Source of the DNA: Lachnospiraceae bacterium
GTDB taxonomy: Bacteria; Bacillota; Clostridia; Lachnospirales; Lachnospiraceae
Assembly (NCBI GenBank): GCA_017936885.1
Contig: JAGBEO010000029.1
Coordinates: 1 to 64,000, forward strand
Reading direction: 5' to 3'
DNA length: 64,000 bases
Shown here: piece by piece, positions 10,150-37,505 of the stretch
How positions within the stretch are numbered: position 1 is the first letter of the stretch
Layout: each line of letters opens with the position of its first letter
Program-made: the position numbers and the translations under genes
Notes under the pieces: model-generated
Told to the model about the DNA's origin: nothing
Database searches by the model: none
The model's input: the letters and a program-made list of their open reading frames with translations, nothing else

Positions 10150-10179
10150 TGTGGGACACCGAAAGCTCTAATCCGAAAC
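10150..10179 (-). promoter_or_regulatory. Backbone operon motif, copy A
   Basis: On the minus strand GTTTCGGATTAG, nine bases, TGTCCCACA, then TAACTTACGAAGG. It stands directly behind the terminator of the preceding gene and 51 bases before the pilin-like ATG, so the operon's promoter probably lies in or after it. Confidence 0.7.
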
Positions 10180-10197
10180 GAAAATAATAAAATTTGC

Positions 10198-10238
10198 AAA
10201 AAAATACCCCGAACCATGATTTCTCACGATTCGAGGTA
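10198..10238 (-). terminator. Rho-independent terminator
   Basis: On the minus strand TACCTCGAA pairs with TTCGGGGTA, with a further inner stem, followed by seven T. It ends the single gene at 10258-10521 and insulates the transfer operon. Confidence 0.8.
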
Positions 10239-10257
10239 ATATAGTTTTCTTAAACTC

Positions 10258-10521
10258 TTAATCGATTTTTATCCACTTTACCATATCTGTATCCTTATAT
10301 AGGTTTGATTTATGCTCCTTTTTACTTTCCTCTTCAATTAGTTGATTTAGGACTTTTATTTTCTCCTCTTTACTGAGCTTTTGCCTTTCCATTTCATCCA
10401 TTATGGCATCTACCTTAATTCTGGCCATATATTTAAAAAATTCATCAATATATTTTTTACTCTCATCACCATAATAAATATTCATTGTAAACTTTCGAGG
10501 ATTTGTACTCTTTCCTGCCAC
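10258..10521 (-). CDS. Hypothetical 87-residue charged protein
   Basis: The frame starts at a GTG with AAGGAG eight bases upstream. The protein is highly charged and mostly helical (EEKIKVLNQLIEEESKKEHK). The first 35 residues (KFTMNIYYGDESKKYIDEFFKYM) could form a small ribbon-helix-helix-like or antitoxin-like domain, but no family is recognised. It is a single-gene unit closed by its own terminator and does not carry the backbone motif. It lies between two opposed transcription units. Confidence 0.6.
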   Translation of the reverse strand: MAGKSTNPRKFTMNIYYGDESKKYIDEFFKYMARIKVDAIMDEMERQKLSKEEKIKVLNQLIEEESKKEHKSNLYKDTDMVKWIKID

Positions 10522-10682
10522 ACCAATTCTCCTTCCTGACCACAGATTATTTATATTTGTATTATTGTATCCTTTTTATACTATTAAATCTTTTAGACTA
10601 CAACAAAGGAAATAATGATTCACAAGACTATCACAAAACTGAAATACCCTTGCAAAAATGTCATATTTTTTCCATTTTACTA

Positions 10683-10712
10683 TTTACATATTACCAGCAT
10701 CTTTGGTATAGT
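10683..10712 (+). promoter_or_regulatory. Sigma-A-type promoter
   Basis: TTTACA and TATAGT are separated by 18 bases, about 100 bases ahead of the rightward gene at 10812. This predicts a long leader of about 90 bases. Confidence 0.55.
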
Positions 10713-10736
10713 ACTGCTTGCGTCAGTTCCTGGCGC

Positions 10737-10758
10737 AGTTATTACGCTCGTAATAACT
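10737..10758 (+). promoter_or_regulatory. Leader hairpin
   Basis: AGTTATTAC and GTAATAACT form a perfect nine-base stem with a four-base loop in the predicted leader of the gene at 10812. There is no T run, so it is not a terminator; a binding or stability role is possible. Confidence 0.45.
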
Positions 10759-10811
10759 ACATCTTCCAACTAACAACTGTAAATCAAAACACATCAACGA
10801 AAGGAATCATA

Positions 10812-11240: not shown

Positions 11241-12686
11241 TTAATATGCTCCTCTATCTATTGAGGTATGAAAGAGTGTAAGCAGAGTCCTTTGACTTGT
11301 CAGCTTTTTCTTTGTCCTGTTCCCTGCAAAATCCTCTGTGATCAGAATATAATAATCCACCATATCATCCGTAAGATTAATGTCATAGTACACATCAAAA
11401 TATGAATGTGTGTCAGGGTAGTCAAATCTATGATAAGTCGTGTCGGAATAGATTACTTCTTCATCCGTGCCTGTTACCTTATACAGGATGACGCTCTTTA
11501 TTCCACTGCTCATGTTTGCGCCATGTTCACTTCTTACAATCTCATCATCTATGTGCTGATCAATGATATTATCCTGGCAGTAACCGGAAATAACTTTCCC
11601 TTCTTTTGTAACAAAGGTAATCTCTGTTCCGTCAATCCCCGGAGGCGTGATATCATATCTAGTCGTAACATAAACATCTGTCACATGCCCCACATTATCA
11701 ACAGCCTCTATCTTCCAGATATGCTCGCCTTCATACTTTTCTTCAAGTGTATAAACTGTAGAACTTCCACCACTTCTGACTGTATGCCCGGTATCATCAT
11801 AAATCGTAAGACTCCTTACTCCCGATCCTACTGTACTTGTTCCATACAAATAGTCGGTTGATCTTACTGATATCACTGGTGCAATGTTCGTCCAATCCGT
11901 TTCGGTATTCTCAGCACCTATAATCACCGGATTCGAGTGATCAAGATGAACTCTGCCTGTACTTGCCTGAATGGAATGACCCTGTGTATCCGTGGATATA
12001 GCATAGAAATAGTAAATTCCTTCATCTGTCTGAGTGAAACTATCATTCGTCCACCCATGAGCACCGCCATGACCATAACTACCCACGGTAGTTGTTGCTC
12101 CGGTAATGCAATTTACCCTGTACAGCGTAATACTTGAATTTCCTTCTCCTTCATCATAGCCGCTTACATTTACAGTTACATTTCCTGCAGTCCAGTCGGT
12201 TGTAGATACTGACAAGAACAACCCCTTCGACTGTGAATAACCGCATATCGGACAGTTCCTGCTATAGTTACCATCACCGTGAGAATGCCAGCTCGACATA
12301 GAATGATTTTCATACTGGGTAAGACCACATCTTCTGCACGTTCTCATGTGCTGCCTTGAATTTACGCAGGTCCAAGGCCCCCAATCATGTCCGAGTGGAG
12401 GCGTTGTAAAGATTCTCTCTCCCGGGCAGATAGAGCATTTATAAACAACTCTTCCCCCTGACGTACACGTAGCCGATGTTGATTCATAAAGATACCAACT
12501 ATGACCGGAACATCCATCGCCATCGTTATACCAACAGGTCATACCGACATAGCAGCTATTGATACCATAATCCCTGCATCCACAATCAGCGTTATGACAG
12601 CTTCCTGCAAATACAGGCATGGCAGGGAAAAGAACAAACGTCAGCAGTATGCTAAGCCCTGCCAATGCTTTTCTTATAATCTTCAT
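11241..12686 (-). CDS. Secreted cysteine-rich protein with Ig-like domains
   Basis: A 481-residue exported protein. A signal peptide is clear (MKIIRKALAGL, hydrophobic core, cleavage near PVFA-GS at 27). Residues 28-155 contain many Cys and His pairs in two or three CxxC arrangements (CSICPG, CRRCGL, CPICGY), suggesting metal-binding or disulfide-knit modules. Residues 160-355 look like Ig-like repeats (VSTTDWTAGNVTV, then TDWTNIAPVISV). No sortase signal or membrane anchor is visible. It is the last gene of an operon with an A24-type peptidase and a secretion ATPase, so a surface or pilus-tip role in mating contact is plausible. GGGAGGAG precedes the ATG. Confidence 0.7.
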   Translation of the reverse strand: MKIIRKALAGLSILLTFVLFPAMPVFAGSCHNADCGCRDYGINSCYVGMTCWYNDGDGCSGHSWYLYESTSATCTSGGRVVYKCSICPGERIFTTPPLGHDWGPWTCVNSRQHMRTCRRCGLTQYENHSMSSWHSHGDGNYSRNCPICGYSQSKGLFLSVSTTDWTAGNVTVNVSGYDEGEGNSSITLYRVNCITGATTTVGSYGHGGAHGWTNDSFTQTDEGIYYFYAISTDTQGHSIQASTGRVHLDHSNPVIIGAENTETDWTNIAPVISVRSTDYLYGTSTVGSGVRSLTIYDDTGHTVRSGGSSTVYTLEEKYEGEHIWKIEAVDNVGHVTDVYVTTRYDITPPGIDGTEITFVTKEGKVISGYCQDNIIDQHIDDEIVRSEHGANMSSGIKSVILYKVTGTDEEVIYSDTTYHRFDYPDTHSYFDVYYDINLTDDMVDYYILITEDFAGNRTKKKLTSQRTLLTLFHTSIDRGAY

Positions 12687-12697
12687 AAGCTCCTCCC

Positions 12698-13666
12698 TTA
12701 CTTACAGCAATTTCCCGTGCAATCCTCTGTGCAGCCACCTACTCCTCCACATGAAGGGCAAGCGCTATCAGAATCACTGCAACATCCATCTGTCCCTTCG
12801 CAGCTTTCTTCTTCACAAGTACCGCAACCGGAATCAGATCCGCAACCACATCCTCCGGTCTCTCCTTCCTTGTAGTATGAGAATCCAAGATAAGCGGTCT
12901 TTGTATAAGTAATGTCCCCTTTTACGTACTGCACAATAGCAGTGAACATCGTAGGGTACTTGGTGCCATCCTCCAGCTCAGAAAGGCTGTAATAGCATGT
13001 AGATTGAATCAATCTGTCATAATCCATATCACCAAGCATGGAATAGAGAATGCTGCAATCTCCATTAAATTCATAGCTTTCCTCTTTCATGAGCTCATAC
13101 TTTTCTTCGTCATAGGAAGCATCCGTCATGTCATAGTCAAAACCCGATGATTTCCTTGCAAGTTCAAAAAACTCTGCCATATCAGTACATCCTTGATAGC
13201 TAAAACCAAAGGCATCTGCAAAACTAACCTTTTCTATCTTAGAATCATCAAACCCGTCTTCTGTAATGCACTGCGTATAATCTGCCGTTGAATCGGAAAG
13301 AGCCGTGAGATTTACATCTGACATATAGTAACTGGTATATTTAAGCTTCTGGTTCCCTTTCCCATCGTCTACAACCTCCGTTAAGATTTTTTCAACCTGA
13401 ACACAAGTGTTTTCACTAACTGCCTTATCTGCTGAAATCTTCTCATAGCCGTTACCCGCACTTACTGCCTTGCTTTCATTATCATCTTCCTTGGTTTCCT
13501 CATCATCCACCGTTTCCTCGGAAGTTTCTTCTACTGATGTTTCTACCTTCTGGGAAGATTCATAAAGTCCCTTCTTTTCCATCACATGCCTTAAGATCAG
13601 TGCTGCTATAATCGTGACTGCAAACACTACAATAAGCATCTTTATAATTCCGGAATCTATCTTCAT
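12698..13666 (-). CDS. Membrane-anchored protein with a cysteine-rich tail
   Basis: A 322-residue protein with a six-residue polar leader (MKIDSG) and a hydrophobic helix at 7-27, a layout resembling pilin-like or signal-anchor starts, though the Glu+5 of classical prepilins is missing. An acidic linker (about 38-65) leads to a central domain with paired aromatic residues. The last 55 residues contain 13 Cys among Gly, Ser, Asp and Glu. The ATG overlaps the stop of the upstream gene (ATATGA), showing coupling. No family is recognised. The tail could bind metals or be cross-linked by disulfides outside the cell. Confidence 0.65.
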   Translation of the reverse strand: MKIDSGIIKMLIVVFAVTIIAALILRHVMEKKGLYESSQKVETSVEETSEETVDDEETKEDDNESKAVSAGNGYEKISADKAVSENTCVQVEKILTEVVDDGKGNQKLKYTSYYMSDVNLTALSDSTADYTQCITEDGFDDSKIEKVSFADAFGFSYQGCTDMAEFFELARKSSGFDYDMTDASYDEEKYELMKEESYEFNGDCSILYSMLGDMDYDRLIQSTCYYSLSELEDGTKYPTMFTAIVQYVKGDITYTKTAYLGFSYYKEGETGGCGCGSDSGCGTCEEESCEGTDGCCSDSDSACPSCGGVGGCTEDCTGNCCK

Positions 13667-15333
13667 ATCGCATATCCTCCAATTCGTATCATTGTTTGAT
13701 TTAGTTTCTGTTCTATCGCTTCAAAATAAGTTCTTTCTTCCCCTGTCCAGGCATTCCTGACATCGTTTGTAATAGCTGAAATTGACATAGCTCCTGTCTT
13801 TCCTGTAAAGAAATAGGTTCTTACCCCTTCCTTTTCGATGCCAATTCTCTTAAGTGGCACATCTTTTCTAAGGTAATCAGTAACTGCCATTTCAAGGTTG
13901 TCCGATGAAAACAAAGCTTCATCAGAAAGTCTTCCAGCTTCATCCAATACTTCAACCACTATCTTTGCTCCCTTAAAATCAACGGGATTCTCTGGAATAG
14001 AAGTCTCTACTTCAACTGTCTCAACCATGCCATGAAAGTATCGAATGCTTTCTGAAAGCTCCAAAAGCTTCTCTCTTGCCTCATCACATACAACATGATT
14101 TTCAAGAATCAGCTCCAGGTCTCCGACATAGTTAAGGCTTTTCCCTGCTATTATGTTTCTTATAATGTCTTCCTTATCATCTGATACAGTAAGGTCATAA
14201 CCTTTCATGTAACCGACATAGCTGTCAGCAACTGCAAGAGCTCTGTAGTAATCGCTTCTTTCCTTCTCTTCAAGGTCAAACATCATAAGCACCAGCCGGT
14301 TATAGTAATCTTTGAAATGCAGATACTCCTGTACAGAAAGATTCTTACCTATATGCTTTTCAAAGCACACGCAGATATAGTTGAAGTAGAGCTGCATCGC
14401 CTTTTTCTCACTGTCTTCAAATGGCTTTAGGATATATTCCCCGGAAAGAAGGTCTGTTGTTAGAAACTGGATAAAGTCCTTACTTACATTCATAAGTTCT
14501 AAAAGGCTCTGATCCCTGTTGTCATACACCCCTGCTGTAGCATTCCTCGTATATCCGAAATAAACATTTCCCTTACGAAGAAATATTGAAAACTCCGGGA
14601 TATCCTTACATACATGGCTCTCTGTATACTTAAGAGCTCCATCATAAAAAGGAATCTCTTCACATCTTGAATCTGCCAGTTTACTCTCTTCCTCTTTTAA
14701 GAAGGATTTGACTTCCCTTTTATGCCGGATATTTTCAAAAAATCCTGCAAGCTTCTCGACTTTTTCTGAAAAAACATGTCTCTTTGGCTTAAGAGGTTTT
14801 ACCTCTTCTTCCACAGAAGGAATAACCTCTTCTTTTGCCTCTATCAGACTCTCAGGCTCTTTTTCGATCTTCTTTTCTGCCCGTTTTATCTCATCCTCAA
14901 AAGCTTTCAGATACTTCTCTGACTTATCAAGCGTCTTTTGGATCACCTCTTTCTGATAATCCTCTGCTGTAAGGGCATTTACTTTTGACAAATGGATGAT
15001 GTTTACAACCTTGGTCTTCTGAGCATGAAATTCCTTTATAAGCTCTCTTATTGATACCTGATCAAAATCAGTCTTTCCTGCTTCACAAAGAGTCTTGATC
15101 TTTACAAAAGAAACTGCTGCGTTTGAAAGTTCTGTTACGCCCGGCGAGCCCTCCTTTGAAAATAGGTGTGTATACACGGACAACTCCCTTTGAAGCTCCG
15201 TATCTTCCATACGCCTCTGAACAATAAGAAGTGTCTGGGCTCCTTTAATCTCAAATCTTTCGCCGGGGATAGCATTTAGAATCCCAGCCATATCAGGAAG
15301 CTGCTTTTTTATGATTTCTATCTCATCATTCAT
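13663..15333 (-). CDS. Hypothetical 556-residue protein of the ATPase/prepilin-peptidase operon
   Basis: A soluble, charged protein without signal peptide or clear membrane helix. Residues 125-215 are Lys/Glu rich and probably coiled or disordered; the segments on either side look globular. I recognise no domain. It lies between the A24-peptidase-like gene (four-base overlap) and the cysteine-rich anchored protein (four-base overlap), so the three are tightly coupled. A cytoplasmic scaffold for the ATPase is one possibility, but nothing in the sequence proves it. Confidence 0.65.
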   Translation of the reverse strand: MNDEIEIIKKQLPDMAGILNAIPGERFEIKGAQTLLIVQRRMEDTELQRELSVYTHLFSKEGSPGVTELSNAAVSFVKIKTLCEAGKTDFDQVSIRELIKEFHAQKTKVVNIIHLSKVNALTAEDYQKEVIQKTLDKSEKYLKAFEDEIKRAEKKIEKEPESLIEAKEEVIPSVEEEVKPLKPKRHVFSEKVEKLAGFFENIRHKREVKSFLKEEESKLADSRCEEIPFYDGALKYTESHVCKDIPEFSIFLRKGNVYFGYTRNATAGVYDNRDQSLLELMNVSKDFIQFLTTDLLSGEYILKPFEDSEKKAMQLYFNYICVCFEKHIGKNLSVQEYLHFKDYYNRLVLMMFDLEEKERSDYYRALAVADSYVGYMKGYDLTVSDDKEDIIRNIIAGKSLNYVGDLELILENHVVCDEAREKLLELSESIRYFHGMVETVEVETSIPENPVDFKGAKIVVEVLDEAGRLSDEALFSSDNLEMAVTDYLRKDVPLKRIGIEKEGVRTYFFTGKTGAMSISAITNDVRNAWTGEERTYFEAIEQKLNQTMIRIGGYAI

Positions 15334-15818
15334 ATAATGCTCACCTCCTTACTGATTCCATATAAAATGACCATAATAAGAATCATTGCGAACCCTGGAA
15401 CAACCGCTATATCAGAGTGCCTGTCAAGCTTTCTCTTTTTGATAGCTGCCTCTATAAGACCAGCTATAAGAGCAATCCCCTGAACACCCACAAGTAATAT
15501 GCAGACAACAAAGCCAAACTGCAGCATGTTCTTAAGGTCAAAAGTGCTTAAAATGACGCCCGTAAAAAGGAGCCACATGTCACTGTCTCCATCTCCCCAC
15601 ATGCCACTGATTTTGTAGGCCGCAAATAGCGCAATCGTCGCACTCCATGCCGTTATCACAAATATAGGATTATCCTTATAGAGAATTACTGAATGAGCCG
15701 CCCATGCTCCTGATAAAAAAAGCACCGGGAAACTGTAAATCATCCGTTCCTTCAAATCCTGGGCTGCCAGGAATACGAGAACGGGAATGGTTGCAAGTGC
15801 AAGTGAAAAGTAAGTCAT
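15330..15818 (-). CDS. Prepilin-peptidase-like membrane protein (A24 family)
   Basis: A 162-residue protein with about five membrane helices. Two aspartate motifs match A24 aspartic peptidases of TadV/CpaA size: AAQDLKERMIYSFP near residue 20 (compare D-x-R-x-IPN) and WGDGDSDMW near 95 (compare GxGD). The carboxy end (VVPGFAMILIMVIL) matches the usual PFxPF-like closing helix. It should cleave leader peptides of pilin-like proteins. Four-base overlaps connect it to the ATPase gene before it and the 556-residue gene after it. It is distinct from the host Tad peptidase at 50 kb. Confidence 0.7.
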   Translation of the reverse strand: MTYFSLALATIPVLVFLAAQDLKERMIYSFPVLFLSGAWAAHSVILYKDNPIFVITAWSATIALFAAYKISGMWGDGDSDMWLLFTGVILSTFDLKNMLQFGFVVCILLVGVQGIALIAGLIEAAIKKRKLDRHSDIAVVPGFAMILIMVILYGISKEVSII

Positions 15819-17056
15819 GCGTCCTCCTTCCTGAAAATCTCGTTAAACTGTAGTCTCTTTGTTTTTTCATCAAAGCCGCTTACTTCAAGGATTTCATCTA
15901 TCGAAAAGTGGCTCATATGGATAAGCACAAAGGGCGTGCAGGTAAGCATCTCACAAAGCGTCTCCATAGGATAATCCGAAATATACCTTGCACACTGAGC
16001 CAGCCTTATCACACTACTTGCCGCATCATTGGCATGAATCGTTCCAAAAAATCTTGCGCCTGTGCTCATGGCTGTGGTGAATACATATAATGCCTCACCG
16101 CCTTTGATCTCTCCGATGATGAAATTATCAATGTCCTGCAATAGACCAAGCCGAAGCTCGTCCTCCAATGAAAAATCTGTTACTGTGTCTTTTTTCCGAA
16201 CCGTCATCGTATGCTCAAACTGAATCTGAGGATGTACATTGGAATACAGCTCATCCGACTCCTGCGATACAAGCACTGACTCCCCAAATGGAATGCAGTC
16301 AATCATGTTGTTAAGGAGTGTGGATTTACCGGATCCGCCTCTGCCTGATATCAAAAATCCGTAGCCTGCACATATTCTGTCCTTCAAATACGCAATCATT
16401 TCTTCATCAAGCATTCCGTTCTCAATCAGGTACTCCCAGGAAAGCTTTGTCTTTGGCATCTTTCGGATATGAATATTGTTCTTCTCTGTGGAAGTGATAC
16501 AGGATAGCTGTACATCAATACGAAGATAGAAATCCTTTACCCCTTTTCTGTCCGTGCAGTGTGAAAGGGCATATTCTTCACTTTTTCCAAGTCTGTGAAT
16601 ACGAAGGATCCTTGAAAACCAATCTTTATAATCTGTCTGGTCAAAGAATTGGCATTTTGCCACATATCTTCTTCCATTTGCCTTTACTACGATATGGTCA
16701 TAATCAAGTACCTTGATATCAGATACTTCCTTTGCTTCTACAAGCGGAGTTAAGACATAATACCCAAACACACACTGCCGGAACATTTCTAAGAGCTTCC
16801 TTTCCTCTTCCTCGGAAATCCCCCTGAGGCGCTCCCTAATAAAGTCCTTTGCTCTGTCCATGAGCATTATGAAATCCTGCTCCGTTCCCGTAATGCACTT
16901 TGTTACAAGCGCAGGGTTAAGATCACAGATATTTGCCTTTAGCTGCATAAACTTCGCATTCAATTCCCTATCAGAAAAGAGCGAAAAAACAGGGTAGAAA
17001 TCAGATTCAAGTTTGAGCGGAGCCTTCGATTTAGGTTCATACCTAAGCTCGCTCAT
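15815..17056 (-). CDS. Secretion ATPase, TadA/CpaF/VirB11 family
   Basis: A 413-residue hexameric-type ATPase. The amino domain (to about 200) resembles CpaF. Walker A is SGRGGSGKST near residue 240, an Asp-box-like stretch follows (LVSQESDELY), and the GEIKGGEAL and GTIHANDAASS segments near 315-345 match Walker B and the His box of the family. In CpaF the loop reads SGGTGSGKTT; here the variation is conservative. The ATG at 17056 follows AAAGGAGG closely. The neighbouring A24 peptidase suggests a pilus-like assembly rather than a plain VirB11 role. Confidence 0.88.
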   Translation of the reverse strand: MSELRYEPKSKAPLKLESDFYPVFSLFSDRELNAKFMQLKANICDLNPALVTKCITGTEQDFIMLMDRAKDFIRERLRGISEEEERKLLEMFRQCVFGYYVLTPLVEAKEVSDIKVLDYDHIVVKANGRRYVAKCQFFDQTDYKDWFSRILRIHRLGKSEEYALSHCTDRKGVKDFYLRIDVQLSCITSTEKNNIHIRKMPKTKLSWEYLIENGMLDEEMIAYLKDRICAGYGFLISGRGGSGKSTLLNNMIDCIPFGESVLVSQESDELYSNVHPQIQFEHTMTVRKKDTVTDFSLEDELRLGLLQDIDNFIIGEIKGGEALYVFTTAMSTGARFFGTIHANDAASSVIRLAQCARYISDYPMETLCEMLTCTPFVLIHMSHFSIDEILEVSGFDEKTKRLQFNEIFRKEDA

Positions 17057-17079
17057 AAAATCCTCCTTTCTACCCTTTA

Positions 17080-17109
17080 TGTGGGACACACCTTGGTCTA
17101 ATCCGAAAC
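17080..17109 (-). promoter_or_regulatory. Backbone operon motif, copy B
   Basis: GTTTCGGATTAG, nine bases, TGTCCCACA on the minus strand. The first arm contains the last codons and TAG stop of the relaxase gene, so the motif is preserved even inside coding sequence. It stands 23 bases before the ATPase ATG. Confidence 0.7.
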
Positions 17110-18954
17110 CTGGCGTCTTACTTTTTTCGCTTTTTCTTCCTGCTGCTTTTCTACAAAACTCTCTGCATCCTCCCTCTTATCAAATGAATGGCATTTATAT
17201 AATCCGTACTCTGCCTTTAGTTCTGATATGCTCCGGTTAAAGTCTTTTATAGACATGTCCTTTGAAGAAAGCTCAGATAACTGTTTCCCTGATCTATCAA
17301 AGACAGTAACAACAGCCTTTTCTGTACGTTTCCCGTCAATAATATCCGGTGTGATAACAACTCTTATGTATGCCCCGTCAGCTCCATCCGCTGCAATGAA
17401 CTTTATACAGCTCTCAAAAACACCCATCTGCATGGCTCTCATCCTTGCCTTTGAAAAGCCGATTGCATCATAAAGGGATGTATATTCTGAAATGCCCTGT
17501 TTGAGCTCATTTTCCTTGAATCTCAAAATAGTTTTATATTCATCAGAAAGCTCCTTTGACTGTGCCGTGGCATACAGTATCTGATTCTCCTGATCTTCAA
17601 TATAGGCAGATACTTCAAGAACGCTCTTTCCATATCCGTTTTCTAATCTTTCACAGAGCTTTTTATATTCCATGTAGGAAGATAAATACTCACCACAGGC
17701 AGCAAACTCATATAGGTACGCTTTTCTTGCATACTTTTTTATCTCCTTGTAGAGCCTTATGATTGGCTGATAGGTCTTTAGGTTTTCCCTGACAGCCTTC
17801 TTTTCTGCTGCTATTTCCTTCTGACGGGCTACAATATTATCCAAGGCATCCTGAGCATTACCAGTATTTGGCGCATATACCCTTATAAGCTCATATACAC
17901 CCGCCGTGCGCCTAAACTCATCAGAGAGCCTTTGAAGCTGCCAGTTTGACTCCTGCCTTTCTCTCCAAGGATTCCTGCCAAGTTTTAAAGCCCTAATGCA
18001 TTCCTTTTTTTCATCCTCTGACATATCCTTAAACTTTTTTAGAGGAGATGTCTTTACAAAGACTGATGCAGGGTCCTTCTTTCTTCCTACATGCTCTCCA
18101 ACTTCACTACGTATCAATTCCTCTCGCTTATTAAGGATTCTGTCTCTGATTGCCTCAACCGTATACAAGGAGCCAAGCCGATAGCTTCTAATACCTCTTG
18201 TCATCCCCTCTGCCTTAAGACTTAGATATTTTCCACAATTAACCACGATTCCCTGTTTTTTTAAGTCTTTTAAAAACTCCTCGAAATCCTCAGACCGCTC
18301 TACTGCCTCATCAACAGCCTGCCTTAGCTTAACTACTCTCTCTCCGAAAGAAACCTTATCCTCCTGCTTTTCCTTTACCCAAGCTTCATTTAGCGTAAAA
18401 CCATACTTCTCAGCAAGCCTGTTAAGAGCCGGATCAAACACCTTACTCATAAAAGACTTATCCATATGAATCTTCTTACCACCAAGCCCAACAGTATTTA
18501 AAATGAAATGAATATGAAGGTTTTCTGTATTGGTGTGAACCGCATACACTGCCTGATTATTTGGAAATATCTCCTCTAAAAGGTCATTTAGAAGCATCAT
18601 AAGTTTCCCGGCATTCTTCTTATCCGACTCTGCTGCGTCAAGAGATATAATGCCGTGTAGTGCCACCCTGCCTCCAAGCTTTCCGTGAAACTCCTTTACC
18701 TGCATCATTTCATTTGTAGCATTCTCGATATCTGAGATATTGCGGCATCCAACATAAAGCCCCTCCAATGTCTTTACATCATTCGTGACATAGGTAAGCT
18801 CCCTTCCTATCTGAGCCTGGCTTCCTCCAAGGGTCTCATCACATTTTTCGCTATTTGTTATGTAGTCAATGGAATCTGAAATCTGTGCTCCGGCGCCTCT
18901 TCCCTTTGAGCCATCCTTTATATTCCAGATTTTTGCAACAATACCTTTTGCCAT
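17098..18954 (-). CDS. MOBP-type relaxase
   Basis: A 618-residue mobilization nuclease that should nick oriT and lead the strand into the recipient. The amino-terminal domain has the relaxase histidine motif HTNTENLHIHFILN near residue 143, preceded by the helix with YAVHTNT, typical of MobA/VirD2-like MOBP proteins. The carboxy half is helical and charged. The start at 18954 has GGAGG seven bases ahead. A perfect terminator hairpin ends directly at this ribosome-binding site, so expression probably depends on read-through from the SpoVG operon. An IncP-like nic site at 24.93 kb fits this relaxase class. Confidence 0.9.
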   Translation of the reverse strand: MAKGIVAKIWNIKDGSKGRGAGAQISDSIDYITNSEKCDETLGGSQAQIGRELTYVTNDVKTLEGLYVGCRNISDIENATNEMMQVKEFHGKLGGRVALHGIISLDAAESDKKNAGKLMMLLNDLLEEIFPNNQAVYAVHTNTENLHIHFILNTVGLGGKKIHMDKSFMSKVFDPALNRLAEKYGFTLNEAWVKEKQEDKVSFGERVVKLRQAVDEAVERSEDFEEFLKDLKKQGIVVNCGKYLSLKAEGMTRGIRSYRLGSLYTVEAIRDRILNKREELIRSEVGEHVGRKKDPASVFVKTSPLKKFKDMSEDEKKECIRALKLGRNPWRERQESNWQLQRLSDEFRRTAGVYELIRVYAPNTGNAQDALDNIVARQKEIAAEKKAVRENLKTYQPIIRLYKEIKKYARKAYLYEFAACGEYLSSYMEYKKLCERLENGYGKSVLEVSAYIEDQENQILYATAQSKELSDEYKTILRFKENELKQGISEYTSLYDAIGFSKARMRAMQMGVFESCIKFIAADGADGAYIRVVITPDIIDGKRTEKAVVTVFDRSGKQLSELSSKDMSIKDFNRSISELKAEYGLYKCHSFDKREDAESFVEKQQEEKAKKVRRQVSD

Positions 18955-18963
18955 AAATACCTC

Positions 18964-18995
18964 CAAAAAAACAGGGCTGCCTATTATGGCAGCCC
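18964..18995 (-). terminator. Perfect terminator abutting the relaxase ribosome-binding site
   Basis: On the minus strand GGGCTGCC, six bases, GGCAGCCC, then TGTTTTTTT running straight into GGAGG of the relaxase gene. No promoter is evident between it and the relaxase ATG, so it may act as an attenuator. Confidence 0.85.
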
Positions 18996-19005
18996 CGCTT
19001 ACATC

Positions 19006-19260
19006 TTAAAGTTCCTCGTACTTGGAAAGCACCTGCATGTTGATATCCTCTCGAAGAGCCTTTGTCATAGGAAAACATACATCCTTGTACTCCCCATCTG
19101 AGTTCTTCCATGAAGGATATGCCACAAAAAGGTCTCCGCTTTTTGCTCTCATAACCTTGATACCGGATACAACAAACATTCCTTCAAAGGTGATGGAACC
19201 ACTGGCAAGGAACTTATCATCACCTTCCCTCTTTTTAAGTCTCACTTCGGAAATCTGCAT
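19006..19260 (-). CDS. SpoVG-family nucleic-acid-binding protein (first of two)
   Basis: An 84-residue protein close to SpoVG in length and sequence pattern: MQISEVRLKK, a GSITFEGMFVVSGIKVM strand pair, FVAYPSW, and a carboxy helix beginning CFPMTKALREDI. SpoVG proteins bind DNA and RNA and regulate division, virulence or sporulation genes. Here it precedes the relaxase gene and follows a longer SpoVG paralogue by 14 bases. A role in regulating element transfer is inferred. Confidence 0.85.
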   Translation of the reverse strand: MQISEVRLKKREGDDKFLASGSITFEGMFVVSGIKVMRAKSGDLFVAYPSWKNSDGEYKDVCFPMTKALREDINMQVLSKYEEL

Positions 19261-19274
19261 AACAAGGATCCTCC

Positions 19275-19643
19275 TTATCGTCCACGTCCCTTATGGGGCT
19301 TAGCTGCATCTTCCGCCTGAGTCTGCTCCTGACCTTTGGACTCATCCTGATTGTGGCTTTTGTCCTGAGCCTCCTGGGCAACTTCCTCCTGCTTACGATG
19401 AAACTCTTTCATGATGGCATCGGTGATCTCATGATAGAACTCTTTGCTAAGAGGGAAAGCAATGTCTTCATACTCACCGTTTGCACGTTCTCTGGAGGGA
19501 AAGGCAACAAAATTTCTTCCCTTCTTATCCTCCATGACTCTCATACCACGGACAGCAAATGCATTATCAAGCGAAAAGCTTCCGATGGCTTTTACACCGC
19601 CTGCATTATCAAGCAGGTTCATTCTGATATCTGTAATCTCCAT
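19275..19643 (-). CDS. SpoVG-family protein with charged tail
   Basis: A 122-residue paralogue of the next gene. Residues 1-85 have the SpoVG pattern (MEITDIRMNLL, FAVRGMRVMEDKKGRNFVAFPS, IAFPLSKEFYHEI). Residues 88-122 form a Gln/Glu/Lys-rich, probably disordered tail ending KPHKGRGR. AAGGAG precedes the ATG. Tandem SpoVG genes suggest either a heterodimer or two targets. Confidence 0.85.
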   Translation of the reverse strand: MEITDIRMNLLDNAGGVKAIGSFSLDNAFAVRGMRVMEDKKGRNFVAFPSRERANGEYEDIAFPLSKEFYHEITDAIMKEFHRKQEEVAQEAQDKSHNQDESKGQEQTQAEDAAKPHKGRGR

Positions 19644-19654
19644 ACCCTTACTCC

Positions 19655-20671
19655 TTATCTGTGGTGGCGAGGTCTTGAAACCTCTGTGTTTGCTGCATCA
19701 TAGCTCTGCTTATCCTCAGATACCTTTGAGATATCCTGACTTAAGCCATCTACGTCTGCTAAAGACAAGGTCTTTGTCTTAGCATCGTACTTATAAACGT
19801 GATCAGAAAGCTGCTCTTCCTGAGAAACCTGAGTCGCGTTTACTTCTCTTACCATCTGTGCGAGTTCCTCTGGTGTACCGAAGTTTGCAGAAATGGCGAT
19901 TGTCTCATGGATCGATGAAGGTAAGATGTACAAATCTGTACCAAGCTTTTCAGAAAGTTTTTCAAGTGCATCTGAGTAGATAATACTTGCAGCACCGTTT
20001 ACCTTCTGCTCGTTGCTGATGACATACATCATCTTATCTTCTGCAACCATAGGCATCATGTCTTCCGGCATACCACCCATCATCTCGGCAAGCACACTTC
20101 CCATGTCCTGAACCTTAGCAGGCATGATAGTTTTACTGTTTTCCATTGCACATGCATGGAGTTCATCCAGCGAAATATCCCACTGCTTCATATGTTCATC
20201 CTTGATGGTAATAGTTCCGATACCATCTGAGCCGCCACCAAGATATACCTTATAAATGATGGCCAGATCCTCTGTCAGCTTATGAGGTGTGTTCTGGAGC
20301 ATCTCGGCGTTTTTCTCGGCATTTACGATTGCAACAACAACATGAGACTTGATAAACTCTACATCCTTAAACTTCTCAGCAATGCTGCTAAAGTCTTCGG
20401 AAGGGTTCATGTGCTCAAGCTCAAGCTGCGCTACCCTTTCCATGACTACATCAATATCCATGCCCTGTTCCTTATAGTTCTCATAGAACTGATCCAGGTA
20501 GATATTAGGGCATACAGGGTTTTCGCCTGTGCGAATCGTGATGCCGTGGAGCTGCTTTCCGTTATTCTTGTTTACGGTCTGCAAGTTTACCTCCGCATCC
20601 GCAAACTCGGAAGGCAGAAAATCTTTGATGTTGTCCTTCACATACTGCTGAAATGACTCGAAATCAAGCAT
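19655..20671 (-). CDS. DUF5688-like protein
   Basis: A 338-residue cytoplasmic protein resembling the DUF5688 family common in Lachnospiraceae conjugative elements: an amino helix FESFQQYVKDNIKDFLP, a central VNKNNGKQLHGITIR segment, and MYVISNEQKVNGAASIIY near residue 220. Biochemical function is not known. The ATG at 20671 follows AAGGAGGAAAAGGACA and overlaps the stop of the 42-residue gene before it. Confidence 0.7.
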   Translation of the reverse strand: MLDFESFQQYVKDNIKDFLPSEFADAEVNLQTVNKNNGKQLHGITIRTGENPVCPNIYLDQFYENYKEQGMDIDVVMERVAQLELEHMNPSEDFSSIAEKFKDVEFIKSHVVVAIVNAEKNAEMLQNTPHKLTEDLAIIYKVYLGGGSDGIGTITIKDEHMKQWDISLDELHACAMENSKTIMPAKVQDMGSVLAEMMGGMPEDMMPMVAEDKMMYVISNEQKVNGAASIIYSDALEKLSEKLGTDLYILPSSIHETIAISANFGTPEELAQMVREVNATQVSQEEQLSDHVYKYDAKTKTLSLADVDGLSQDISKVSEDKQSYDAANTEVSRPRHHR

Positions 20672-20792
20672 TGTCCTTTTCCTCCTTCTCCTTGATTTTT
20701 TCTGCAACTGCCTTTACAGTCGCCTTTACCTGCTCGTTTTTTGTGAAGTTCTTTTCTACCTCCACATGAGCATTTCCAAAAGAATAATCCAT
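20664..20792 (-). CDS. 42-residue lysine/glutamate-rich protein
   Basis: A short gene beginning MDYSFGNAHVEVEKNF with AAGGAGG seven bases before the ATG. Its stop overlaps the start of the DUF5688-like gene (ATGCTTGA). It is the first gene after motif copy C. The carboxy half is a charged helix. No family is recognised. Confidence 0.6.
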   Translation of the reverse strand: MDYSFGNAHVEVEKNFTKNEQVKATVKAVAEKIKEKEEKDNA

Positions 20793-20842
20793 ATCGCTAC
20801 CTCCTTATCTTTGTGTGCTGGATTTTTTCCTTTCATCCTATT

Positions 20843-20872
20843 TGTGGGACATGTATCTTTCTAATCCGAAAT
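20843..20872 (-). promoter_or_regulatory. Backbone operon motif, copy C
   Basis: ATTTCGGATTAG, nine bases, TGTCCCACA, then AATAGGATGAAAGG on the minus strand, 51 bases ahead of the 42-residue gene. Confidence 0.7.
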
Positions 20873-20887: not shown

Positions 20888-21844
20888 TTATCTTTTTTTG
20901 TGTGGTGTCGGTATATACGGCTCTTTTTCCTCTGATACCATAGGAAGAGATTCCCTTTCCTTCTTAAGTTCCCTTATCTTTTCTTCTATAGAAGAAGAGA
21001 GCTTATCCGCTGTCTGTTTGATCACATCCAGGCTTTCCTTAAGTTCGGAGACTTCCTTATCCTTACTCCAACCGGATATATACCCAAATGAATAGTCAGA
21101 AGTATCAAGCCCAATCATCTGTGTTACCCAATATGCAACCGATTCCGCCTGAACCTCTTTGGTCTGCCTGTCCCACTTATCCTCTTTACTGCCATGTCCA
21201 AGGGTTGCATGCGCAATTTCATGAACCATCGTCTTTAGCATCTGAAGCTGCGGCAGACGTTCATCAATCACAATCTTTCCTGCAGTCGGAGAATAATATC
21301 CGTTGGCACCGCCGTTTATTGTTTCAAATGACACCGGAACCGGGCTGATACTTATAAGAACACTTTTCATTTCCTCAAAAGAATCAACAGTTTCATTTAG
21401 TTCCGATGCAAGAGTAGGCAGCGGATCTCCGCTTGTCTGTGAAACATCGAAAACATATACCGGCCTAAAGGCCTGATACTCTCTTGTTACCTTCTCTGTT
21501 TTTTGGTTCCCGTTTTCATCAACAACAGCCTTGTTATTCTCATCGAAGACCTCTTCTACAACCTCAGTCTTACCTTTGATGGGAGCCAAGATCATAATCC
21601 CGTGCTCTCCTTTATTGACTGTCCTGTTAAATTCGGTCTGCCATTTTCGGAAACCGCAAACAAGGCTTGCTTCTGGTAACTGGCTTGCAATAAGTATGCA
21701 GTTATTGATGGAATACCTCGGGAACTTAGACATAGCCGAGATATATTCCTGATACTTTTCAGAAGTAAAGATTGCTCTGACGCCATCCTCTAATTTCTTT
21801 TGGATAGCACTCATCTTCTCTTCACGAGTTTGTCTTTCTGCCAT
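20888..21844 (-). CDS. ArdC-like ssDNA-binding/metallopeptidase protein
   Basis: A 318-residue protein. The amino half (residues 10-130) matches the ArdC/LtrC single-strand-DNA-binding domain (FPRYSINNCILIASQLP, GFRKWQTEFNRTVNKGEHGI). The carboxy half contains an HEIAH zinc-binding motif near 208 with downstream Glu residues, as in ImmA/IrrE peptidases. In ArdC this combination protects incoming DNA in a new host. GGAAGTGATC precedes the ATG, which follows the 96-residue gene by four bases. Confidence 0.85.
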   Translation of the reverse strand: MAERQTREEKMSAIQKKLEDGVRAIFTSEKYQEYISAMSKFPRYSINNCILIASQLPEASLVCGFRKWQTEFNRTVNKGEHGIMILAPIKGKTEVVEEVFDENNKAVVDENGNQKTEKVTREYQAFRPVYVFDVSQTSGDPLPTLASELNETVDSFEEMKSVLISISPVPVSFETINGGANGYYSPTAGKIVIDERLPQLQMLKTMVHEIAHATLGHGSKEDKWDRQTKEVQAESVAYWVTQMIGLDTSDYSFGYISGWSKDKEVSELKESLDVIKQTADKLSSSIEEKIRELKKERESLPMVSEEKEPYIPTPHKKR

Positions 21845-21848
21845 ATGA

Positions 21849-22139
21849 TCACTTCCTTACCGGATAAACCTTGTTTTGTTCAATCATCTGGTCAACAAGC
21901 TCGCATAGGTTTTCATCAAAGTACTCAGAGACAGATAGGATCACGCTGATAACTGCAAGATACTCGCTACTCTTCTCATCATGTGGATGACTTAAGTAAT
22001 CTCTTGAATACCTGTCATAAAGATGGTCAAGCAAGTCTATTCCATTGATGCGAGCACATCTTATGTATGTCTTTTGCCCTTCTGAGAACCTGATACCATT
22101 TTCTTCTGCCGCTTTGATCTTCTTTTCAAACTTGTACAT
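21849..22139 (-). CDS. Hypothetical 96-residue protein
   Basis: A small soluble helical protein (MYKFEKKIKAAEENGIRFSE; ARINGIDLLDHLYDRYSRDY). It is the first gene of the unit behind motif copy D and precedes the ArdC-like gene. GGGAGG precedes the ATG. No family recognised. Confidence 0.65.
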   Translation of the reverse strand: MYKFEKKIKAAEENGIRFSEGQKTYIRCARINGIDLLDHLYDRYSRDYLSHPHDEKSSEYLAVISVILSVSEYFDENLCELVDQMIEQNKVYPVRK

Positions 22140-22184
22140 TAAATACCTCCCTTCTTAAGCGCCTTTGATTGTTCTCATAAGGTT

Positions 22185-22214
22185 AGTGGGACATGCATAG
22201 CCCTAATCCGAAAC
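22185..22214 (-). promoter_or_regulatory. Backbone operon motif, copy D
   Basis: GTTTCGGATTAG, nine bases, TGTCCCACT on the minus strand, immediately behind a terminator. Downstream ACCTTATGAGA matches the surroundings of copy F. Confidence 0.7.
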
Positions 22215-22821: not shown

Positions 22822-22921
22822 CATCCACCTCCAGCTTGATATTAATAATGAAGTCTTCTTCCTGAGCATTTACAAGCTCAACGACCTCATCCATCGTATA
22901 TTCTTTATCCTTTATTTCCAT
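22796..22921 (-). CDS. 41-residue acidic protein
   Basis: A short gene beginning MEIKDKEYTMDEVVEL and ending SEGSV, with AAGGAGG upstream. It overlaps both neighbours: 17 bases with the MobC-like gene and 26 bases with radC. It looks like a small helix-strand domain. No family recognised; overlaps and ribosome-binding site support translation. Confidence 0.55.
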   Translation of the reverse strand: MEIKDKEYTMDEVVELVNAQEEDFIINIKLEVDDGDSEGSV

Positions 22922-23216: not shown

Positions 23217-23228
23217 CATATCCCTCCC

Positions 23229-24605: not shown

Positions 24606-24637
24606 CCAAAAACCTCCTTTCGTGCTTTCTACCTATA

Positions 24638-24667
24638 TGTGGGACATACTGAAAGCAAATCCGAAAC
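24638..24667 (-). promoter_or_regulatory. Backbone operon motif, copy E
   Basis: GTTTCGGATTTG, nine bases, TGTCCCACA, then TATAGGTAGAAAG on the minus strand, 32 bases before the coiled-coil gene. Confidence 0.7.
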
Positions 24668-32240: not shown

Positions 32241-32247
32241 TTACCCC

Positions 32248-32958: not shown

Positions 32959-32982
32959 AACAATTCTCCTCGTAAACCGATT

Positions 32983-34554: not shown

Positions 34555-34562
34555 ATTCTCCC

Positions 34563-34718: not shown

Positions 34719-34813
34719 AGCTTACCTCCAGTTAGGTACACTGACCCATGATTTTACATGTGTTTTATGTTTCTACTGTAATGGTAGCAGATAGGGTGTC
34801 CTAAAAAGCGTAC

Positions 34814-35833
34814 TCATAACGTCTCATTTAGCCTTTTAAGCACATAATCTGCAAATTCCTTTGTGAGTTGGAACGGACTTCCATAACTGATGGCATTCAA
34901 ATTGTCCTTGCCTCGCATGGTCACATGATCTTCTTCATGCAGACGGTGTATTATAAAATCCTCCGGCAATTCTAATGTTTTTATTTCTTCCTGCCACCAT
35001 TTCTTACTAAAATCCGGTGTCAGACAACGAAGCATATATTTATATGGCCATTTATCCCATGTATCTTCTGTATATTCCTCAGGTATATCTTCGAGTACCA
35101 TATAAATTCCAACTACTAAGCCATGCTCTTTGGCATGAATCACCATAACATCACCTTTATGATATGTGGCTTTTTTGAATCCAAGCTTCACATCATCCAC
35201 AAATGGCTTCTTAGGATGAGGCTTTCCATCTCTCCCGATTGTCTTAAGAAAGTACCTTGTTTCCTTTGTCTTTTCAGACCGCACAAACTTTGCAGATTTA
35301 AATGACGGTTTTTCTTGCTTTGGATGCTTCTTCTTAAACTCCTGTGCCTTCCCATAAAGGTAAGACAGATATGCCGCTGAAAGTGTATGTGCAACATTGT
35401 TTCTCACATTCTTAAGCATTTCATTTTGGAGAATTTCATCCTCTATTAAAATGCCGTACTCAATATTCTTAGTAAGTCCCTTTGTTGTAAAATTCGCTGA
35501 GGCGGTGACAAATCCTGTTGCCTTTTCTCCTTTATAAAAGAGATAAACTTTCCCGTGTAACCCGTCGTCATAAAACATACTAAGAGAAATGCTTTCCTTC
35601 TCGCAGTACTTCTGGAGCCTTGATAAAGCCTCTATGATTTCTACGCCCATTTCAAAGCCATCAATGTTTGTGTACACATAAAGATTCTTTATGGTTGGCA
35701 TTTCCTCAATGATCTTCTCTATATCAGGAGCCAAGAAAGGTGATACCAGATAAAATGTATCTGACTTTTCAGCCAATGCTAAAAGTTCCTCTTTATGATT
35801 AAAGCCACCATTCCATGTAATTTCCACATTCAT
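34814..35833 (-). CDS. Phospholipase-D-fold nuclease-like protein
   Basis: A 339-residue protein. One PLD-type motif is clear near residue 91: HGKVYLFYKGEKATGFVTASANFT, i.e. HxK followed by the Ser/Asn-rich strand, as in the restriction nucleases of the NgoFVII/Bfi type. Such proteins dimerise to build one active site. A carboxy domain of about 150 residues (GDVMVIHAKEHGLVVGIYMV) may recognise DNA. It lies behind the XRE regulator and nitroreductase genes and could be a restriction-like effector. Confidence 0.75.
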   Translation of the reverse strand: MNVEITWNGGFNHKEELLALAEKSDTFYLVSPFLAPDIEKIIEEMPTIKNLYVYTNIDGFEMGVEIIEALSRLQKYCEKESISLSMFYDDGLHGKVYLFYKGEKATGFVTASANFTTKGLTKNIEYGILIEDEILQNEMLKNVRNNVAHTLSAAYLSYLYGKAQEFKKKHPKQEKPSFKSAKFVRSEKTKETRYFLKTIGRDGKPHPKKPFVDDVKLGFKKATYHKGDVMVIHAKEHGLVVGIYMVLEDIPEEYTEDTWDKWPYKYMLRCLTPDFSKKWWQEEIKTLELPEDFIIHRLHEEDHVTMRGKDNLNAISYGSPFQLTKEFADYVLKRLNETL

Positions 35834-35845
35834 ACCATCACATCC

Positions 35846-36505
35846 TTAAATCGGAAAGCTTTTCTCTGCTCCTATTTCAAAATGACATCTTACAATTCCG
35901 AGATCTACCTGGCTAAATATGCCGCCCTTATCCACGAAATCCACACTTTCATCCTCATTTAGTCGGATTGTAAACTTCTGCTGGTTGATAGCGGTAGGTG
36001 CTAAAAGTGCCATATCAACACCCTTATTAAACCAATAGGGCCTATCACCCTTTGCTTCAATTACCTGCTCAGGACTCTTTGACTTATGGGGCTTACCCTT
36101 ATCTTTCCCATATCCTACGGCAATGCTGATTACAAGCTTTTCGCCAGCTCCAACCTCAGCACCAATATTTTTTTCATTAAAGGTTCCAGCCCAACAGGTA
36201 TTAAGCCCAAGTTCCTGTATGAAAAGCACAAGCTTTTCTCCATAGTAACCGACTCTCTGCTCCAAAGTTTCATCATCGATTCCTACACAGGCAATAACAC
36301 TCGGTGCAGATCCAAGCCCTGCAACTTTGTTAAAGAGCTTATTATAGGTCTTTCCGGCATCCTCCATAAATTGCAAATGAAGATTCCCTTCCTTGTTAAG
36401 CTCTTCAATCTTAGCTCTGATCTTTTCGACCTTATCAGCTTCAATCTTTTTTGCTTCATAATTTCTTACGGAATGTCTTTCTTTGATTGCATCTATCTCA
36501 CTCAT
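35846..36505 (-). CDS. Nitroreductase-family flavoprotein
   Basis: A 219-residue protein with the FMN-binding amino motif ERHSVRNYEAKKI, a central GLNTCWAGTFNE segment and LLAPTAINQQKFTIRL near the end, matching nitroreductase-family proteins of the TM1586-like branch. It probably reduces a small substrate with NAD(P)H. Its ATG overlaps the regulator's TAA (TAATG), so both are co-expressed. Confidence 0.85.
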   Translation of the reverse strand: MSEIDAIKERHSVRNYEAKKIEADKVEKIRAKIEELNKEGNLHLQFMEDAGKTYNKLFNKVAGLGSAPSVIACVGIDDETLEQRVGYYGEKLVLFIQELGLNTCWAGTFNEKNIGAEVGAGEKLVISIAVGYGKDKGKPHKSKSPEQVIEAKGDRPYWFNKGVDMALLAPTAINQQKFTIRLNEDESVDFVDKGGIFSQVDLGIVRCHFEIGAEKSFPI

Positions 36506-37212
36506 TAGTTCTCTCCTATGGCAAATGGACGTATATTGTCCTCATTTTTTATCGTAATATCCGTACTGATACTGGTCTTTATGCTGACTTCATCTATAAT
36601 TTCCTGCCCAAGTACCCTGACTACAGATATGTACAGGGAGATTAGCGGAAGCTCGATAGCTTTTAATGTTTCGAAGATACCTGCATCATCTGTTACAAAG
36701 CTTACCTTGCTGCCGGGTGTGAACTTCGGCTGGTTCATGATGATGCTCTGGATCTCATCCTTTGTGATATTCGCCTTTGTTACAGGCACAAAGAACCACT
36801 TATTTACTTCATTTCTTTCTATGATGATCTCAAAAGGCTCGTTATCCTTATATCCCTTGGACTCGATTTTCCAATCATAGCTGCTGTTTGCCATGCCAAG
36901 AAACACAGGATGGAAGAAATCCTTCCTGGCTGCACCAACAGGTCTATCATCCTTATACTTTTCAGCATCATAACCTGCGGCAGTAAGGAGCTCTTCATAG
37001 CTTACCGTCTTTGTAGCAACAGCAATCTTCTTAATGGTTCCGATAGTCGGAGCATCTGAAAGCTTCCCGTTAGCGTACTTATTAAGGTAGGCATATGAAA
37101 GCCCGGTATCCTGACAAAACTCAGCCTGGCTCCTATCGCCCCTTGCCTTTATGATTACTTCTTTAAAAACTTCTTTATCAAATGGAAAATCTGTCAGTTC
37201 TTTTCTACGCAT
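36505..37212 (-). CDS. XRE-family transcription regulator
   Basis: A 235-residue protein with an amino-terminal helix-turn-helix (RSQAEFCQDTGLSYAYLNKYANGK, residues 28-52) and a carboxy domain of unknown kind. The ATG at 37212 follows GAGGAATATTT. It is divergent from the recombinase operon, and the 317-base gap holds inverted TGTTCTATG/CATAGAACA sites and several TGTTTTAT-like half-sites in both promoters. It is the likely repressor or activator of the recombinase genes and of its own operon. Confidence 0.8.
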   Translation of the reverse strand: MRRKELTDFPFDKEVFKEVIIKARGDRSQAEFCQDTGLSYAYLNKYANGKLSDAPTIGTIKKIAVATKTVSYEELLTAAGYDAEKYKDDRPVGAARKDFFHPVFLGMANSSYDWKIESKGYKDNEPFEIIIERNEVNKWFFVPVTKANITKDEIQSIIMNQPKFTPGSKVSFVTDDAGIFETLKAIELPLISLYISVVRVLGQEIIDEVSIKTSISTDITIKNEDNIRPFAIGEN

Positions 37213-37253
37213 CAAATATTCCTCTTAAAAATAAGTACAATAGTACAGCGTTT

Positions 37254-37282
37254 ATTCTAACATAAAACACACTATTTTTCCA
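37254..37282 (-). promoter_or_regulatory. Promoter of the XRE regulator gene
   Basis: On the minus strand TGGAAA, 17 bases, TAGAAT. The spacer contains TGTGTTTTATGT, a half-site also seen at the divergent promoter, which suggests autoregulation. Confidence 0.45.
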
Positions 37283-37366
37283 GCTATTTATGTTCTATAA
37301 GCATCAGTTTACACATCTATTTAAGTTCTATTTAAGTTTTATTTTGTTATAAAACATATTTTTCTC

Positions 37367-37408
37367 TTGACATACTGTGTTCTATGTGTTTTATTATTGC
37401 ATAGAACA
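37367..37408 (+). promoter_or_regulatory. Recombinase operon promoter with operator
   Basis: TTGACA at 37367 and TTTATT at 37390 are spaced by 17 bases. TGTTCTATG (37378-37386) in the spacer and CATAGAACA (37400-37408) after the -10 box form a perfect inverted repeat; a bound regulator would block the promoter. Confidence 0.6.
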
Positions 37409-37476
37409 TATTTTATGTGTTTGAAGTTAAGTTTTATTATGGTTTTATACATTTTTACATAAAATTTGTATTCCCT

Positions 37477-37505
37477 GTTTCGGATTACGTGTTTTATGTC
37501 CCACA
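37477..37505 (+). promoter_or_regulatory. Backbone operon motif, copy F (rightward)
   Basis: GTTTCGGATTAC, eight bases, TGTCCCACA, then TACCTTATGAAAGGAGG. It is the only plus-strand copy and stands 27 bases before the first recombinase ATG. It lies about 75 bases behind the predicted promoter at 37367. Confidence 0.7.

Follow-up and report, generated by a model that had tools for sequence, protein, structure and literature searches.

A putative dedicated promoter for the transfer operons of a Lachnospiraceae integrative conjugative element, with a sigma-like protein as its candidate reader

Mobile elements that bring their own sigma factor for their own promoters are known from the phages SPO1 (gp28) and T4 (gp55), and the group 5 factors TcdR, UviA and BotR are divergent sigmas carried on mobile loci of Firmicutes. 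The subject of this analysis is a repeated motif in a 64,000-nt stretch of a Lachnospiraceae genome, the whole of which is called the window (GenBank GCA_017936885.1, contig JAGBEO010000029.1, here C19 of genome G000); its element was read as an integrative conjugative element (ICE), and since the window starts at base 1 of C19, one end of the element is missing. The two phages differ from it in being virulent rather than conjugative elements shared with hitch-hikers, and the TcdR group, likened here by description and not by sequence, serves toxin or bacteriocin genes. The nearest precedent in logic would be AcaCD of the IncA/C plasmids, an element-encoded master regulator with sites before transfer operons, the same sites standing before recombination and mobilization genes in the unrelated islands SGI1 and MGIVmi1; here too sites occur before transfer operons and in unrelated islands, but both promoter boxes are private and the candidate regulator is sigma-like (PMC4207636). 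SetCD likewise exerts master control over the transfer operons of the SXT/R391 ICEs, but it is an activator, not a sigma factor, and works in other hosts (PMC4344509). No Pfam match to an FlhDC-like activator was found among 40 window ORFs scanned, the element being cut by the contig end. In the part available of a review of integrative mobilizable elements (IMEs), a sigma-70 gene does appear on a mobilizable element, the tet(O) IME-like fragment of Streptococcus pyogenes, but it is listed as cargo, without promoters or role (PMC5704250), and the available part of a review of Gram-positive conjugation mentions sigma only in connection with phrI, where the factor is the host's sigma-H, and within a reference (PMC6540685). 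At the level of titles and abstract openings, the open-licence literature searched described neither the motif nor any sigma factor devoted to ICE transfer.

A sequence-only reading of the window had claimed six copies of a two-armed motif, and they were found at 10150, 17080, 20843, 22185 and 24638 on the minus strand and at 37477 on the plus strand (copies A to F), each in the sense of the next gene. The spacer between the arms is 9 bases in five copies and 8 in F, and the nearly invariant arms are both exact in A and B and carry a single change in each of C, D, E and F. The six sites contrast with 0 matches of the exact motif in 100 shuffles, and they are the only exact-core copies in their own genome; the relaxed core CGGATT-N-CYACATA occurs 4 times in window positions 1-46000, against a mean of 0.017 and a largest count of 1 over 60 whole-window shuffles, and a reversed-pattern control gave 0 in the own genome and 0 in each of 77 genus genomes. 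In a scan with a two-arm position weight matrix (threshold 16), the six copies scored 34.5-38 and, besides a register-shifted B, only 11096 (17.4) and 13853 (16.4) passed; none lay within the cargo (25098-36505), and 693,611 bases of reversed sequence gave 0 matches. Copies A and D do sit behind terminator-like hairpins, 26 and 14 bases away (10238-10205, 15 pairs; 22249-22228, 9 pairs), so close that a further promoter would hardly fit in between. Window-wide, hairpins of this kind are not enriched over shuffles (12 vs 10.1), but these two are the longest. Copy B overlaps a coding end, the TAG of CGGATTAG being the stop codon of the relaxase ORF at 17098-18966. The boxes, layout, placement, spread among elements and private versions described below can be read directly from the DNA.

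The motif is very probably a promoter with private boxes, and its anatomy is well supported by the alignment of 27 sites on the left box, several of them mutually orthologous. The parts follow in the order T-tract, -35 box TTwCGGATTAG, spacer, -10 box TGTCCCACATA, six bases and a conserved purine (usually GAAAGG). Nine positions are invariant in all 27 sites (C0, G1, G2, A3, T5, C21, A23, C24 and A27, as left-box offsets); offset 34, at which transcription would start, is G in 22 and A in 5, the tract after +1 being purine-rich anyway. With offset 34 as +1, CGGATTAG occupies -34..-27 and CACATA -12..-7, with TGTCC just 5' of the -10. The weaker third block of the earlier reading is present, and is better described, with TAnnTTATGAAAGG as the end of the -10 box plus the presumed start. 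The boxes are spaced as CGGATT-N16-CACATA, or N15 in 3 of the 27 (F, RGIG3232 and RGIG4443), within the 15-18 bp of a sigma-70-type promoter. Further upstream, offsets -17..-14 are T in 81 of 108 cases, above all 5000 shuffles and all 5000 rotations, which would place an UP-like A/T tract at about -51..-48, although copy B and some other sites have no TTTT there. The -35, -10 and about -50 positions are the points at which sigma and the alpha C-terminal domains contact promoters. In agreement with the earlier reading, the boxes are not those of sigma-A: TTGACA/TATAAT is not matched, and the -10 is not sigma-A-like. A sigma-A scan gave 17 matches against 34.8 in shuffles, with none in the same sense within 200 bases 5' of copies A-E; two are found farther from A, at 222 and 293 bases upstream and on the far side of its hairpin. 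A possible sub-type with a conserved spacer (TTTCGGAWT..CGRAAAATCATATGCYACATA-like) was noticed at L086:17389-17430 and L162:10031-10072, in genomes G243 and G155.

The earlier suggestion of an RNA element, acting through antitermination or translation control in the leaders, could draw on the short leaders, several of which, inspected by eye, show small hairpin-like repeats close to the ribosome site. It is very improbable: the 44-column site alignment folds with 0 conserved pairs, no Rfam match occurs in window positions 1-46000, and the left box lies upstream of the presumed start. Moreover, at A and D the hairpin precedes the motif rather than following it.

The six putative promoters stand before the backbone operons. 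Copy A (10141..10178, minus; -35 TTTCGGATTAG at 10178-10168, -10 CACATA at 10153-10148, presumed +1 G at 10141) precedes the VirB4/VirD4 operon, whose first gene starts at about 10099 and whose transfer genes (1256..9868, minus) encode, by Pfam, VirD4, p482, NlpC/P60, VirB4 and p344, p482 and p344 having no Pfam match. Copy B (17071..17108, minus; presumed +1 A at 17071, ATG at 17056) heads an operon that begins with a T2SSE ATPase gene (11241..17056, minus) and whose other four genes are without Pfam match. Copy C (20834..20871, minus) precedes a 42-aa ORF and the genes for DUF5688, two SpoVG proteins and a MobA/VirD2-type relaxase (17098..20707, minus; Pfam), and copy D (22176..22213, minus) a 96-aa gene and an ArdC-like gene (20888..22139, minus; Pfam). 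Directly under copy E (24629..24666, minus) lies the gene for the 458-aa protein E (23229..24605, minus), N-terminally winged-helix-like by eye, and behind it those for a NikA/MobC-like protein and RadC (22255..23219, minus; Pfam, the NikA-like match below the curated cut-off). Copy F (37478..37514, plus; spacer one base shorter, presumed +1 G at 37514) precedes three tandem tyrosine recombinases (37533..42150, plus; Pfam), the likely first ATG being at 37533; divergent from it is an XRE regulator (36505..37215, minus; HTH_3).

A near-identical element was found in the rumen commensal Pseudobutyrivibrio ruminis CF1b and in Butyrivibrio SIG346: most of the backbone proteins compared are 96-100% identical, with lower values in CF1b for XRE (89%) and the integrase (83%). 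In both genomes the element extends further, into an operon called VirB2-like by eye, which has a motif copy of its own (CF1b 231261; SIG346 22586). More distant ICEs, as their sequences compare, have kept the operons and the layout and changed the boxes in concert. The proposed search of related elements showed the motif before the homologous operons of genome G481, whose proteins are 42-95% identical to those of the window: its sites precede operons A-E, the VirB2-like operon, the integrase and the sigma-like gene discussed below, with CGGAWT and YAC kept and TGTCC varying. In G178 (31-80% identity) the motif is TGCAGAT-N16-CYAYATG instead, with six exact copies against 0 in 60 shuffles, and a one-change copy upstream of the DUF5688 operon was found by reading. 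Operon A of G178 has two of these sites upstream, and the others stand before operons E, C and B, before the VirB2-like operon and before the sigma-like gene; 2 of 9 relaxed matches lay elsewhere and were dropped, though a purine start would fit them too. The window motif came top in an unsupervised dyad search of upstream regions, in which the G178 motif ranked equally with A/T-rich dyads. In G411 and G796, opened solely because profiles of the 342-aa sigma-like protein matched them, the same search gave TTTAGTAAT...CAACCCAAATGTA (5 copies) and TTCTGTAATCAC...GGCTCCAAGTA (6 copies), before the E, C, B, A and VirB2-like operons and, in G796, also ArdC. G272, opened for its E homologue and searched likewise, has a fifth version, GCTTTTTCGAACCCTAAG-A, of which exact copies stand before E, ArdC, C and B.

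Over 39 operon sites in six ICEs, 28 nt (27 in three) run from the -35 core to the -10 end, followed by six nt and a purine, the box distance having been fixed in the patterns for this fit and free by a few bases in other scans, and the -10 end having been selected to fit in G411 and G272; the four G272 sites can be placed in the same layout. The -10 boxes across versions share C-Y-A-N-R-T-R, with few exceptions. A cross-scan of four versions over eight sequences confined each version to its own class. Absence of the motif before homologous operons in relatives had been named as the observation that would count against it; G481 carries the motif before its homologous operons, and G178, G411, G796 and G272 keep its position and layout with the sequence changed, an outcome in the motif's favour.

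These comparisons also bear on the earlier proposal that the motif is an operator for the XRE protein or the SpoVG pair, which is hardly credible now. Both are encoded by the element, and XRE is 70-98% identical among motif-sharing elements, but it was not found in the G178, G411, G796 and G272 stretches, and SpoVG1 stays 59-63% identical in ICEs with a wholly different motif. The arms are not palindromic by inspection, and an operator of the repeat type was rejected. Upstream of copy F, moreover, an inverted repeat, TGTTCTATG/CATAGAACA (37378-37386/37400-37408), together with a TTGACA sigma-A-like promoter recognized by eye (37367..37410, plus), is probably the operator of XRE and a second control of the integrase operon. 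Its half-sites differ in CF1b and in G481 (XRE 70%), while the motif is unchanged. XRE may repress the integrase from this host promoter, which could also permit integration in a fresh recipient without a dedicated factor.

The remaining proposal of the earlier reading, a promoter for a special sigma factor, is favoured because of the layout and because of a sigma-like gene in the fuller relatives. The candidate reader is a 342-aa protein in CF1b, encoded 11.7-12 kb past the VirB2-like motif copy in CF1b and SIG346; taken over CF1b, SIG346, G178, G411 and G796, the VirB2-like promoter is followed by the gene after 11-16 kb, the contigs of G481 being split. The gene was found in three of G178, G411, G796 and G272, G272 being the exception. 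Of the five promoter versions, four thus occur in an ICE that also encodes the sigma-like protein. For the element of the window, the gene would lie past the contig end, about 12 kb beyond position 1 if spaced as in CF1b, the contigs of G000 and RUG13935 (G477) ending inside the element. The sigma likeness of the protein is supported by profile comparison: a six-member profile (CF1b, SIG346, G481, G178, G197 and G411) matched seven host group-1/3 sigmas with an HHalign probability of 86.9% (E 4e-6), collinear over regions 2, 3 and 4, and the controls, made up of eight further ICE families, the same profile reversed and 40 shuffles of its columns, reached at most 0.5%. The protein diverges fast, with 22-28% identity between lineages where aligned, compared with 71-85% for VirB4 and VirD4, and the gene has its own motif copy in CF1b, SIG346, G481 and G178. 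A profile search of 24 genomes chosen for the motif or for E gave full matches in these same 4. Of the other profile matches, G633 has the coordinates of CF1b and was taken as the same genome, those in G367 (contig C22) and G274 are partial, and a candidate in G651 was set aside, lying in a response regulator. The frame of the gene is broken near the N-terminus in G382 and G796. Viral contigs yielded no confirmed member of the family. Between a small zinc-ribbon-like gene and the sigma-like gene, G197, G411 and G796 share a similar leader (L177, L178, L203) that could be an attenuator, and genes resembling those of a Tad pilus (TadE/TadG, prepilin peptidase, by eye) lie behind the sigma-like gene (L110 from about 4260; L111). 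An ordinary sigma gene (158-aa frame) lies outside the window on the same contig (G000:C19:68644-68835).

Taken as a whole, the reading of a dedicated promoter read by this element-encoded sigma-like protein is given a probability of about 0.64. Several observations weigh against it. The HHalign probability falls to 38% with the four closest members, to 21% for G197/G411 and to 0.2-23% for single members, and it is 15% against all 20 host sigmas mixed and 0.2% against the extracytoplasmic function (ECF) set. The 342-aa protein has no curated-family match to sigma (Pfam Sigma70_r2/r4, NCBIfam) and no sigma match among PDB sequences. Despite having the same boxes, CF1b and G481 have sigma-like proteins only 23% identical; the -10 before the gene is degenerate in CF1b and SIG346 (CCACGAC), and no motif was seen before it in G411 and G796. 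In G197, where a sigma-like relative is present, the dyad search of the 11-kb contig showed no repeated motif, and 20 of the 24 genomes searched gave nothing or a partial match (13-17 bits), G272 with its private motif among them. Finally, protein E follows the motif classes no less closely than the sigma-like protein does.

This last point bears on a rival reader: some other type of activator encoded by the element, for which the winged-helix protein E is the best candidate, working together with the host sigma factor. Immediately under the motif, E is found in the ICEs and also in SIG347 and G482 C28, whose genomes show no sigma-like gene, and is present in G272, where that gene was not found either. 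Its identity follows the motif classes (52% in G481; 23-34% in G178, G411, G796 and G272), a divergence between lineages of 23-52% that is similar to that of the sigma-like protein. Small winged-helix-like genes (by eye) also stand under the motif in RUG13622 and Oribacterium KHPX15, with an HHalign probability of 24% to E. Nevertheless, E was not seen behind the motif in the other mobilizable elements read, it has no sigma likeness (HHalign 0.3%), and the boxes sit at sigma contact positions without a sigma-A -10, so that a role of E as reader is considered unlikely.

The spread of the motif among genomes bears on a possible host reader. The exact core occurs in 1 of 77 genus genomes and 4 of 397 family genomes, the own genome included in each. 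A pattern scan of genome contigs gave 33 stretches, 28 of them judged genuine because of their sequence and the next gene; the 28 come from Lachnospiraceae, Butyrivibrio, Pseudobutyrivibrio, Agathobacter and Oribacterium records and one Clostridiales metagenome-assembled genome (MAG). The five chance-like stretches are from Undibacterium, Bradyrhizobium and Myxococcales, with the pair L011/L030 of Oscillospiraceae/Clostridia MAGs (L011:4040-4066; L030:986-1012), where the match lies just before a hairpin-like repeat and is probably chance or an unrelated repeat. One of the 28, the G476 copy (L024/L083; L083:8801-9141), is a stray fragment, about 340 bases long, from the VirB2-like promoter region; the 40 kb read there encodes none of the eight ICE proteins looked for. 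A search of a plasmid collection gave no match, the single viral-contig match (L010) was rejected as chance-like, and viral contigs searched for the other promoter versions gave none.

In unrelated Lachnospiraceae elements too, judged by the genes that follow, the motif is found ahead of genes for integrases, recombinases and relaxases. It stands before tyrosine integrases in L085, L088 and L076, with the integrase as second gene in L038 and behind a winged-helix-like gene (by eye) in L087; before an E homologue and a serine recombinase in L164 and in L078, the recombinase with a second motif copy in the latter; before a Mob_Pre relaxase in L075; and before an 80-aa gene without Pfam match in L086. 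Of 348 family genomes, 11 gave a match at E up to 0.01 to a sequence-only model built on 26 sites. Five of these matches were strong (E below 1e-3; G000, G155, G195, G243 and G367) and six weak (G382, before the sigma-like gene, G109, G316, G336, G399 and G419, the context being read for G382 only). With looser filters, strong matches in 12 genomes lay on ICE contigs or, where read, before element-type genes, the exception being G482 C33:61536, without a clear gene behind the motif; none of the strong matches read had a clearly chromosomal context.

A host sigma factor or regulator that the elements borrow would account for the motif-bearing elements that lack both the sigma-like gene and E in several hosts, and the own genome does contain 21 Sigma70_r2 matches. 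This is improbable, given strong matches in just 5 of 348 family genomes, their confinement in the 12 genomes to ICE contigs or, where read, element-type genes, and the five private versions in related ICEs; a host-wide regulon was rejected on the rarity and contexts of the strong matches.

The element carries further genes around the operons described. Its restriction cargo (25098-36505) consists of GmrSD, a FokI-like endonuclease, two methyltransferases, an NgoFVII/PLD-like protein, a nitroreductase and four genes without Pfam match. Behind the recombinases lies a gene for an actin-like (ALP/Alp7A-like) protein (42565-43470), 83-100% identical in CF1b, SIG346, RUG13935 and G481. A second T2SSE ATPase was seen in the ICE at L093:12995-14242.

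In the favoured mechanism, a promoter of sigma-70-type layout with private boxes, a start at the conserved purine and, mostly, an upstream T-tract would jointly turn on the ICE's operons for integration, the relaxosome and type IV secretion. Its likeliest reader, we infer, is the divergent, fast-diverging sigma-70-like protein encoded beyond the VirB2-like operon. Mobilizable elements with unrelated recombinases and relaxases, which carry the same promoter, would exploit the factor of the conjugative element and probably time their own excision and transfer by it. That each ICE lineage owns a private, mutually exclusive pair of sigma factor and promoter for the same transfer operons is a tentative proposal, slightly short of an even chance; the pair would have been re-invented in concert across 4-8 promoters, perhaps as mobilizable elements keep copying the current version. 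If true, conjugation would here be under the control of a sigma factor that the element encodes for this purpose, and the lineages would form a natural series of orthogonal sigma-promoter pairs on the same operons, useful for seeing how promoter specificity changes and as a source of parts for insulated gene circuits. It could also predict which mobilizable elements of the gut and rumen mobilome answer to which helper, and the promoter sequence provides a simple search key for hitch-hiking elements in Lachnospiraceae.

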